Source of the DNA: Psychrobacter glacincola
GTDB taxonomy: Bacteria > Pseudomonadota > Gammaproteobacteria > Pseudomonadales > Moraxellaceae
Assembly: GCA_001411745.2 (NCBI GenBank)
Contig: LIQB01000002.1
Span: 63,892-127,891, forward strand
Direction of reading: 5' to 3'
DNA: 64,000 nucleotides
Made by a program: the position numbers and the translations under genes. Position 1 is the first letter of the stretch; every line of letters begins with the position of its first letter. Under the pieces are notes generated by a model, which was not told where the DNA came from, searched no databases, and was given only the letters and a program-made list of their open reading frames with translations. Shown here one piece after another: positions 45,899-48,611 of this stretch.

Positions 45899-47545
45899 TT
45901 ATTCGGTACCAAATTGTTTGCGCTTTTTGGCAAAGAAGCGATCCAAGCGGTCCATGGCATCTTCTAAATCATGTAAGTTTGGCAAAAATACCAAGCGGAA
46001 ATGATCGGGCTTATCCCAGTTAAAGCCTGTTCCTTGCACCATTAAGACATTTTCTTCAACAAGCAAATCCATCATAAATGCCATATCATCTTCGATAGGG
46101 TAAACATTAGGGTCCATCTTTGGAAAGCAATAAAACGCGCCTTGTGGCATGGTACAAGAGATACCTTTGATCGCATTAAGCCGTGACACAGCCATTTCAC
46201 GCTGCTTATATAAGCGCCCACGCTCTGACGTGAGCTCTTTCATGCTTTGATAGCCGCCCATTGCCGTTTGAATGGCATACTGACCTTGGACATTGGAACA
46301 CAAGCGCATAGACGCTAACATGTCCAAACCTTCGATAAAGTCAGTGGCATGGTGCTTTTTGCCAGACACCATCATCCAACCTGCGCGGAATCCCGCGATA
46401 CGATGCGATTTAGATAAGCCGTTGTATGAGAGCACCAGCACATCATCAGTCAAGGTGCTCATTGGGGTGTGTACCATATCATCATAAAGAATACGATCAT
46501 AAATTTCATCGGCCATGATGATTAAATCATGCGCTTTAGCGACCTCAATAATTTGTTTCAGCAATTCATCACTATAAAGTGAACCCGTTGGATTATTAGG
46601 GTTAATCACCACGATACCTTTGGTTTTAGAGGTGATTTTAGATTTAATATCTTCGATATCAGGATGCCAATTATCGTCTTCATTACAGCGATAATGTACC
46701 GCTGTGCCGCCAGCTAGGTTCGCCGCTGCCGTCCAAAGCGGGTAGTCTGGCATTGGGATAAGCACTTCGTCACCATCATTCATTAAAGCCTGCATGGTCA
46801 TTACAATCAGCTCAGAAACTCCGTTGCCCAAATAGACGTCACGGACATCAACTGCCGATAGCAACCCCTTTGATTGATAGTACTGTAGGACAGCTTTACG
46901 CGCTGAAAAAATCCCTTGCGAGTCGGAATAACCGGTCGCGTCTGGTAGGTTCATCGCCACATCGCGCAAAATCTCATGCGGGGCTTCTAGACCAAAGGGG
47001 GCTGGGTTACCGACGTTCAGCTTTAATATACGTTTGCCTTCGGCTTCCATCTTATTGGCTGTTTGTAGTAGCGGACCGCGAATGTCATAGCAAACATTTT
47101 GTAATTTATCCGATTTTTTTATTGTGTTCATAGTGTGACCACTCATAGGGTTATTTTGTGAGTTTGTATCTATAGTAGGAGTTGTAGTTGTTTGATTGGC
47201 TTGGGAGTCATGTATCTCGTCAGTTTGAGCAGATGACGTATTTTGACTATTCTTATTATGAGAATGAGCGCTCTTACTCACCTCTTTATTATTACTGTCG
47301 TTTTTTAGTTCACCGCGTAACAGATAGCCTTCGCTGCAGCCTAAAATGTGTGCGAGCGTTGGCAGCTTAGATGACACAATGCCATTGGTGCCACGCTCCC
47401 AATTTGAGATAGCCCCGCGACTGACTTTTGCGCCTGCTGCGGTCATGGCTTGCGCTAATTGTTCAGCAGTCAGCCCTTTATCACGACGTAGCTGTACCAG
47501 TCTTTCGGCTTGTGAGCCTTTATTCTTGTCATCAGCCATAGTCAT
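45899..47545 (-). CDS. XRE-type helix-turn-helix / AlaA-like aminotransferase fusion
   Basis: A 548-residue fusion. Residues about 13-78 are an XRE/Cro-type helix-turn-helix (RLVQLRRDKGLTAEQLAQAM, then VSRGAISNWERGTNG and LAHILGCSEGYLLRGE). Residues 80-138 are a polar, Asn/Ser/Thr-rich linker. From residue 139 (MNTIKKSDKLQNVCYDIRGP) the protein matches AlaA, the fold-type I alanine aminotransferase: KLNVGNPAPFGLEAP, VINPNNPTGSLYS, DEIYDRILYDD, the PLP-binding Lys in YNGLSKSHRIAGFRAG, and the C-terminal FRLVFLPNLHDLEDAMDRL. The enzyme part is complete. An internal ATG (47131) has no ribosome site, so the fusion is likely the main product. Inverted repeats at 47611-47700 upstream suggest autoregulation. 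Confidence 0.9.
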   Translation of the reverse strand: MTMADDKNKGSQAERLVQLRRDKGLTAEQLAQAMTAAGAKVSRGAISNWERGTNGIVSSKLPTLAHILGCSEGYLLRGELKNDSNNKEVSKSAHSHNKNSQNTSSAQTDEIHDSQANQTTTTPTIDTNSQNNPMSGHTMNTIKKSDKLQNVCYDIRGPLLQTANKMEAEGKRILKLNVGNPAPFGLEAPHEILRDVAMNLPDATGYSDSQGIFSARKAVLQYYQSKGLLSAVDVRDVYLGNGVSELIVMTMQALMNDGDEVLIPMPDYPLWTAAANLAGGTAVHYRCNEDDNWHPDIEDIKSKITSKTKGIVVINPNNPTGSLYSDELLKQIIEVAKAHDLIIMADEIYDRILYDDMVHTPMSTLTDDVLVLSYNGLSKSHRIAGFRAGWMMVSGKKHHATDFIEGLDMLASMRLCSNVQGQYAIQTAMGGYQSMKELTSERGRLYKQREMAVSRLNAIKGISCTMPQGAFYCFPKMDPNVYPIEDDMAFMMDLLVEENVLMVQGTGFNWDKPDHFRLVFLPNLHDLEDAMDRLDRFFAKKRKQFGTE

Positions 47546-47610
47546 TCAAGCCTTTATTCAGTAGTTGGTAATCGAGAGAAGGAAAGCAGGCATTTGTTTT
47601 AATTAAGCCT

Positions 47611-47700
47611 TAATGCAAGATATTATTGCATTATCAGTATCAATGCAAGCTGTTTTTAAGGGTAGTGTATTTGCCAATGCAAGAATAACTTGCATTGGCA
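47611..47700 (-). promoter_or_regulatory. Palindromic candidate operators upstream of the HTH-aminotransferase gene
   Basis: Three related sites: TAATGCAA (47611-47618) with TTGCATTA (47626-47633), spacer 7; a half-site CAATGCAAG (47641-47649); and TGCCAATGCAAG (47672-47683) with CTTGCATTGGCA (47689-47700), perfect 12-base arms with spacer 5. They lie 66-155 bases upstream of the start codon at 47545. There is no T-run, so they are unlikely to be terminators. The natural candidate ligand is the XRE domain of the adjacent fusion protein (inference). Confidence 0.7.
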
Positions 47701-47729
47701 GTATTATCGCTGCCTCATTGCTGCTCTAC

Positions 47730-47904
47730 TAGGCCGTGTCCTTATTTTAAAAATGGTAATAAAACTGAGATAAATTGTCGTTAAACAAGGAAAGTAGTGC
47801 AAATAATATCGAGATATTGATAAGCTATTTGACGATGTTTGGCAAAATTTAGCCATTTTTAGCCCATTTAGAAGATAATCGATTGAATTGAGGACACGCC
47901 CTAG
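47730..47904 (+). repeat. MITE-like dispersed repeat, longest copy
   Basis: 175 bases with ends TAGGCCGTGTCCTTATTTTA (left) and GAATTGAGGACACGCCCTA (right), the outer 10-12 bases roughly inverted. It is homologous along its length to the copy at 26123-26281. It carries no gene. It starts 30 bases beyond the palindromic operators. The remaining 281 bases to msrB (47905-48185) are AT-rich; a 19-codon frame at 47936-47995 is not supported. Confidence 0.8.
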
Positions 47905-48185
47905 ATATCAAACTTCTTTCAGAGAGTTATTATCATGGCTACATCTGTATTCATTGATATGTTAAGAAAATTTGCTGTATTTTATTTATCATAGCTTTTT
48001 CAATACCTTACGCTATCACTTGCTTATGATGGTTTTCTTGTAATGTATGCCTTGAATATTGAGTGGATAAACAATAGATAAGACCCATCGTTTTTATAAA
48101 AATATGGCGATAAAGTGTTAGTTAATAGCAGATAAAAGCTAATGCTAATGGATGAGATAATACATACCCAAATTAAGGATACATT

Positions 48186-48611
48186 ATGCAAGACAATCAA
48201 CTTAGCCAAGAAGAGATCAGCCAATTAACAGAAGCTGATTGGAAAGAGCGTTTGAGTGCTGATGAATATCACGTGATGCGTGAAAAGGGTACAGAACGCC
48301 CATTTACGGGCGTATATAACGATGCGACTGATGACGGTATTTATCGCTGCAAAGGCTGCGGTGCGAGCTTATTTGACTCAAGCAATAAATTTGATGCCAG
48401 CTGTGGTTGGCCAAGTTTTGACCAAGGAGTTGATAACAGAGCTATTGAGGAGCATGTGGATAATTCGCTTGGCATGACGCGGACAGAAGTAACCTGTAGT
48501 AACTGCGGCGCACATTTAGGTCATGTCTTCCCTGACGGCCCAAGCGAGACGACGGGGATGCGCTATTGCATCAATTCTGTGTCTATTGATTTAGATAAAT
48601 CTGAAAAGTAA
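48186..48611 (+). CDS. msrB: Peptide-methionine (R)-S-oxide reductase MsrB
   Basis: It reduces the R form of methionine sulfoxide in proteins. 141 residues with two zinc CxxC pairs (CKGCGASLF and [12 protein letters not shown]), CGWPSFDQ, and the catalytic Cys in [15 protein letters not shown] lies 7 bases before the ATG. No signal peptide, so it is cytosolic. A glutathione peroxidase gene follows on the same strand 157 bases later; the pair suggests an oxidative repair cluster, though a common transcript is not proven. Confidence 0.97.

Follow-up and report, generated by a model that had tools for sequence, protein, structure and literature searches.

Candidate operators ahead of an XRE–AlaA-type aminotransferase fusion gene of Psychrobacter glacincola track its DNA-binding domain across a bacterial family

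The window, which is the whole 64,000-nucleotide stretch of Psychrobacter glacincola DNA that was analysed, contains a gene for a fusion protein. According to the ORF list and Pfam, this protein comprises, from the N-terminus to the C-terminus, an XRE helix-turn-helix domain, a linker, and an AlaA-type aminotransferase (Table 1). The N-terminal domain matches HTH_19 with 31.3 bits (cut-off 30.2) and HTH_3 with 25.6 bits (cut-off 23), and the enzyme portion matches Aminotran_1_2 (PF00155) with 203.1 bits. The nearest solved chain is E. coli AlaA (4cvq; E 4.2e-168, residues 137-539), and this closest solved relative lacks the N-terminal DNA-binding domain. The best NCBIfam model, NF006230 (alanine aminotransferase PRK08363), gives 343.1 bits, which is below its cut-off of 534; the enzyme is therefore named 'AlaA-type' despite its closeness to the characterised AlaA. 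The AF2 model of the fusion protein has a mean pLDDT of 62.6, a low to medium confidence. It places the XRE helices at residues 6-23, 27-36, 43-50, and 61-67, and residues 69-156 have a pLDDT below 50. K379, D346, Y349, and R517 are among the aminotransferase residues that do not vary across 22 aligned proteins, and the motif suggests that K379 is the PLP lysine. NCBI CDD has an entry, PRK13355, for an HTH/aminotransferase fusion.

Table 1. Features of the fusion gene, its candidate control region, and the divergent neighbour, in window coordinates
Feature	Position	Strand	Basis
XRE–AlaA-type fusion gene, 548 aa	45899..47545	-	ORF list; Pfam
Aminotransferase domain, residues 173-532 of Pfam match	45950..47029	-	Pfam PF00155; nearest solved chain 4cvq
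XRE helix-turn-helix domain, residues 14-79	47309..47506	-	Pfam HTH_19; structure model helices
Proximal operator (candidate), TAATGCAA-N7-TTGCATTA	47611..47633, core 47612-47632	.	inverted repeat; conservation
Inferred -10 box TAATAT, within proximal operator spacer	47620..47625	-	spacer conservation
Inferred -35 box TTGCAT (half-site of the sequence-only reading)	47643..47648	-	TTG at fixed distance
Distal operator (candidate), TGCCAATGCAAG-N5-CTTGCATTGGCA	47672..47700, core 47676-47696	.	inverted repeat; conservation
Repeat element, 176 bp, terminal inverted repeats, between operators and msrB	47729-47904		
msrB, peptide-methionine (R)-S-oxide reductase, divergent neighbour	48186..48611	+	TIGR00357 169 bits, cut-off 113

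A divergent msrB lies upstream of alaA in 101/106 loci of the same genus and in 70/84 other loci of the family, whatever the N-terminal domain, and alaA is therefore largely found at the same genomic place. The distal site is about 485 bp from msrB in the window, including the repeat element. This element has 42 matching pieces in its own genome, some of them partial, and a relative with 72.6% identity occurs on a Moraxella osloensis plasmid. By reading, the related locus L018 has the palindromes and lacks the element at the same place.

Two perfect palindromes and one more copy of AATGCAA, free of any T-run, had been described upstream of the gene from sequence alone. All of them are seen, and a terminator scan of 47500-48200 found no terminator. 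Both palindromes are built on a single core, AATGCAA-N7-TTGCATT, which occurs exactly twice in the 64-kb window against a mean of 0.00 in 100 dinucleotide shuffles. In the distal palindrome, pairing extends by one base on the inside (G...C) and by several on the outside (TGCC...GGCA). Two dyad geometries, possibly with different affinities, had been read from spacers of 7 and 5 bases; this is not supported, since the core is shared and the palindromes differ only in that inner G and in their outer arms. Their centres are 64 bp apart in the window. The third AATGCAA copy, at 47642, had been read as a half-site. The motif is indeed there, but on the gene strand it carries TTGCAT (47648 down to 47643), and it behaves like a -35 box, which is the better reading.

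The two inferred boxes are 17 bp apart, and their positions are conserved in the 103 same-genus copies that have the proximal site. The proximal spacer reads TAATATC on the gene strand, with one variable position (T in 96 copies, A in 7, the latter giving TAAAAT). The hexamer located 17 bp ahead of the -10 box and 11 bp ahead of the proximal palindrome starts with TTG in 101/103 copies. Its commonest forms are TTGCAT (51) and TTGCAA (28), others include TTGAAA, TTGCGT, TTGATA, and TTGTAA, and the base ahead of it is C in 73/102. The combined pattern TTGCAW-N17-TAnnWT is present in 75/103 of these loci, against a shuffle expectation of 0.18. A sigma-70 consensus scan did not report this pair, and both hexamers match that consensus poorly. 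The conservation nevertheless points to a putative promoter of the fusion gene that is interlocked with the proximal palindrome, and the -35 hexamer may double as a half-site. Such a pair would account for the asymmetry of the proximal spacer, while the distal one has the form G-N5-C.

The fusion gene was found in 105/105 same-genus genomes searched, in 106 copies, all with the XRE domain. The proximal site, allowing up to 4 mismatches, is present in 103/106 copies, 77 of which have exactly ATGCAATAATATCTTGCAT. It is missing from L022, which lies at a contig end, and from L118 and L119. The distal site was searched up to 125 bp upstream and scores 11 or 12 of 12 in all 101 copies with enough sequence for the test (83 score 12). 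The sites are thus conserved upstream of orthologues, as the sequence-only reading had expected of an autoregulated gene. Spacing between the proximal and distal sites ranges from 44 to 92 bp across the genus and is 64 bp in 34/101 copies. Helical phasing or looping was considered and set aside, as the 21 distinct centre distances are unphased at 10.5 bp (p ~0.60). Among six periods tried, 9.5 bp gave p ~0.03, and the much smaller p values obtained over all 101 copies stem from related sequences. L118 and L119 are two fusion copies on different contigs of genome G176, which is listed with 5% contamination; each has a distal-type site.

In its own genome, the exact palindrome occurs only as the two sites upstream of the fusion gene. 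One mismatch adds a single place, inside an open frame. Up to two mismatches give 19 places (2 exact), compared with 14 for the reversed pattern, which holds CG pairs and is a poor control; no claim is built on this difference. Nine off-target places, six of them from the own genome, were inspected by ORF listing. Open frames of at least 100 codons contain L286, L288, L003, L004, and L009, L287 overlaps the listed start of an open frame, and L005, L006, and L289 are outside listed frames. The looser pattern WTGCAAN7TTGCAW has 1-7 matches per genome in the 105 same-genus genomes, and 40 matches in total in eight g10 genomes. By reading, 6 of those 40 have the stricter form WTGCAAG-N5-CTTGCAW, and 5/6 of these are at alaA.

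The relation between site and domain was examined in 190 alaA loci fetched from the family, which is Moraxellaceae judging by its named members. With a site defined as a score of 11 or more, 126/134 loci with the XRE domain have it, compared with 0/56 loci that lack the domain, one of which scores 10. Outside the genus, the counts are 21/28 and 0/56. The sequences are related, so Fisher values for this link overstate the evidence. The XRE loci that have no site at this score are L022 (contig end), L045, L136, L146, L147, and the sole loci of g8, g14, and g16. L145 is a g10 alaA copy that has no XRE domain; the palindrome is absent from it, and the pair TTGCAA-N17-TAAAAT is kept. The pattern TTGCAW-N17-TAnnWT is found in 15/19 g10 loci with the XRE domain, against a shuffle expectation of 0.03 loci. 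These comparisons, namely conservation, the link with the XRE domain, and the exactness in the own genome, give good support to the proposal that the fusion protein regulates its own gene. In the g7 loci L042-L044, a second palindrome lies ahead of the fusion gene; its half-sites are TTTGTCAG and CTGACAAA, and it shares the inner G-N5-C frame. It could, speculatively, be a diverged operator.

Other alaA genes of the family carry other N-terminal portions. An extension starting with MSQKKS is present in 4 g9 loci and in 14/25 g15 (Acinetobacter) loci. The seven g13 loci (L159-L165) have another N-terminal domain containing FR[KR]DPNFVGELKKGRSPR, and the four g11 loci (L150-L153) have an extension that starts with MYFVNKK. 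No N-terminal extension is found in 15 loci of g2-g6 and g12, or in 11 g15 loci. On a tree of the enzyme part, a well supported branch sets apart the g13 form, and another the g11 form, whereas at least 3 changes on starred branches are required for the MSQKKS label. Two rows of that tree labelled 'none', L112 and L122, actually have the XRE domain.

The MSQKKS domain resembles StbA of plasmid R388 (7pc1), as a profile of 13 sequences matches it at E 4.1e-6 over residues 10-57. A fold search with a model of the domain (mean pLDDT 72.4) gave no match with E below 1. TALE chains that outscored StbA were set aside because their scores sum many sub-threshold repeats. The loci with this StbA-like domain (L154-L157, L168-L171, L173-L181, L187, and L206-L218, from Acinetobacter and a related genus) have AGCAAA direct repeats upstream, two of them 11 bp apart and further copies nearer the gene at other distances. 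The short word AAGCAA also occurs in 4/6 g7 and 5/19 g10 loci, so only the longer tandem pattern was counted. AGCAAAWAGWAAGCAW is present once per genome, at alaA, in 17/18 genomes with the StbA-like domain (G110 is off by one base) and in 0/11 g15 genomes that lack the domain; because it was drawn from the same loci, finding it at alaA is in part built in, which does not apply to its absence elsewhere and from genomes that lack the domain. Among named Acinetobacter loci, the strict AGCAAA pattern is found in 9/13 with the domain, the other four having 1 or 2 bases changed, and in 0/3 that lack it.

The g13 and g11 forms also have repeats upstream. In 7/7 g13 genomes with an intact locus, the palindrome TAGGRAATANCCTA is found a single time, ahead of alaA; it is absent from two further g13 genomes in which alaA has only partial or weak matches. 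In the g11 loci, GACAGA is found upstream of alaA in 4/4, twice in 2 of them, which is a weak signal. Neither domain has a Pfam match above cut-off (best E 0.018 for g13 and 0.091 for g11) or a match in the PDB, and the search of PHROGs gave none for g13 and a best E of 0.023 for g11. Their position and the upstream repeats suggest that both domains bind DNA. An order-wide search of 293 genomes supports no firm claim on fusions beyond the family among the matches listed, as an alignment that starts within the enzyme part can hide a diverged N-terminus. No fused domain was recognised in the N-termini listed for 61 loci outside the family (L225-L285).

The explanation preferred here, with a probability of roughly 0.8, is that the fusion protein uses the palindromes as its own operators, which would make it a self-targeted trigger enzyme of the AlaA type. 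We infer binding by the fusion protein, in dimeric form, followed by repression and subject to a metabolite signal. The XRE domain would be held on a flexible linker, and a dimer of the fusion would bind AATGCAA-N7-TTGCATT at the proximal and the distal site. On the proximal site, it would cover the -10 box and keep RNA polymerase off, and the amount of enzyme would be limited. As in trigger enzymes, binding probably depends on the active site and on whether its PLP is accompanied by alanine, pyruvate, or glutamate. Since the enzyme part keeps residues that do not vary across the 22 aligned proteins, the natural signal would be the state of the cofactor and substrate, much as PutA responds to proline (PMC8249747). 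When the relatives are included, the simplest account would be that every fused domain recognises the repeats ahead of its own gene; in these relatives the arrangement seems to have been built anew with other domains and operators.

The sites might instead be bound by a separate transcription factor, of the Lrp type or another XRE protein, with the XRE domain of the enzyme doing something else. E. coli alaA is under Lrp control, and this speaks for such a factor, as do the looser matches elsewhere in the genomes; the binder cannot be named from comparison. Sites of a separate factor would not, however, be expected to appear and disappear together with the enzyme's XRE domain, as they do across the family loci given above, including L145, where domain and site are both lost. 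Also against it are the restriction of the exact sites to the fusion gene in the own genome and the pairing of two other N-terminal domains each with another repeat. An independent binder is accordingly judged unlikely.

Somewhat less improbable, though still doubtful, is that the operators serve the whole divergent region, with msrB being controlled by the fusion protein to an equal or greater extent than its own gene. The divergent msrB in most loci is in line with this, yet the promoter-like pair that the proximal site overlaps is that of the fusion gene, and the distal site is separated from msrB by the interval that includes the repeat element. Control of msrB is compatible with self-control by the fusion protein, to which it would add a target. 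Least probable by far is the idea that the palindromes are RNA hairpins or the remains of a mobile element, suggested by the perfection of the inverted repeats and by the multi-copy element that adjoins them. The control region has no terminator-like site, and the distal site, being located ahead of the putative promoter, would be outside the transcript of the gene. The adjoining element has about 40 copies in the genome, whereas the palindromes are exact at one locus, and in L018 they are present in the absence of the element.

Self-control of the fusion gene would resemble the known trigger enzymes. One account includes PutA, BirA, and NadR among them, counts five in E. coli, and states that PutA binds only the spacer between the divergent putA and putP and represses when its substrate is absent (PMC8249747). 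PutA-like trigger enzymes share with the fusion protein an enzyme, a DNA-binding domain, and candidate sites at the own promoter beside a divergent gene. They differ in that the enzyme here is an AlaA-type aminotransferase, the DNA-binding domain is of the XRE type, and this domain differs among relatives together with the operator. The fusion protein has an enzyme domain with conserved residues and a fused DNA-binding domain, and it may act at its own promoter through the operator-like sites that follow the XRE domain.

MocR regulators are composed of a GntR domain and an aminotransferase-like domain (PMC5320631). The fusion protein is similar in having a DNA-binding domain ahead of an aminotransferase fold, and could likewise sense PLP and amino acids. 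In contrast, it has an XRE and not a GntR domain, and its core is near a genuine aminotransferase, E. coli AlaA. Membership in the MocR subfamily was rejected, as no GntR model is among the 6 Pfam families on the protein, although an aminotransferase-like C-terminal domain is present.

StbA of plasmid R388 binds 9-bp direct repeats, 2 nt apart, around its own promoter (PMC3098194). The domain of the Acinetobacter alaA form is related to StbA, and the 11-bp period of StbA sites compares with the 11 bp between two of the AGCAAA copies. Unlike that form, StbA serves plasmid stability and has no enzyme fusion, and it is not the domain found in the window. A literature search covering mostly papers outside subscription found no description of an AlaA-type fusion or its operators.

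Taken across the family, the comparison suggests that self-control of an AlaA-type enzyme has been set up repeatedly. It is fairly probable, with less assurance than for the operators themselves, that at least three unrelated domains (XRE, StbA-like, and g13, with g11 perhaps a fourth) have been swapped together with operators of essentially one target at the msrB-alaA locus, that loss of the domain goes with loss of the operator, and that the family has a domain slot there. The joint exchange of DNA-binding domain and operator at one enzyme gene seems to be the new part. If this is true, alanine synthesis would have come under self-sensing control more than once, with the reader and its site exchanged and the enzyme kept. 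The fusion would be a trigger enzyme with seemingly one target, in an enzyme of central metabolism found throughout a bacterial family, and comparison and simple reporters could address the joint origin of a fused regulator and its site. The question of why alanine synthesis in Moraxellaceae would need control by the enzyme itself also becomes approachable.
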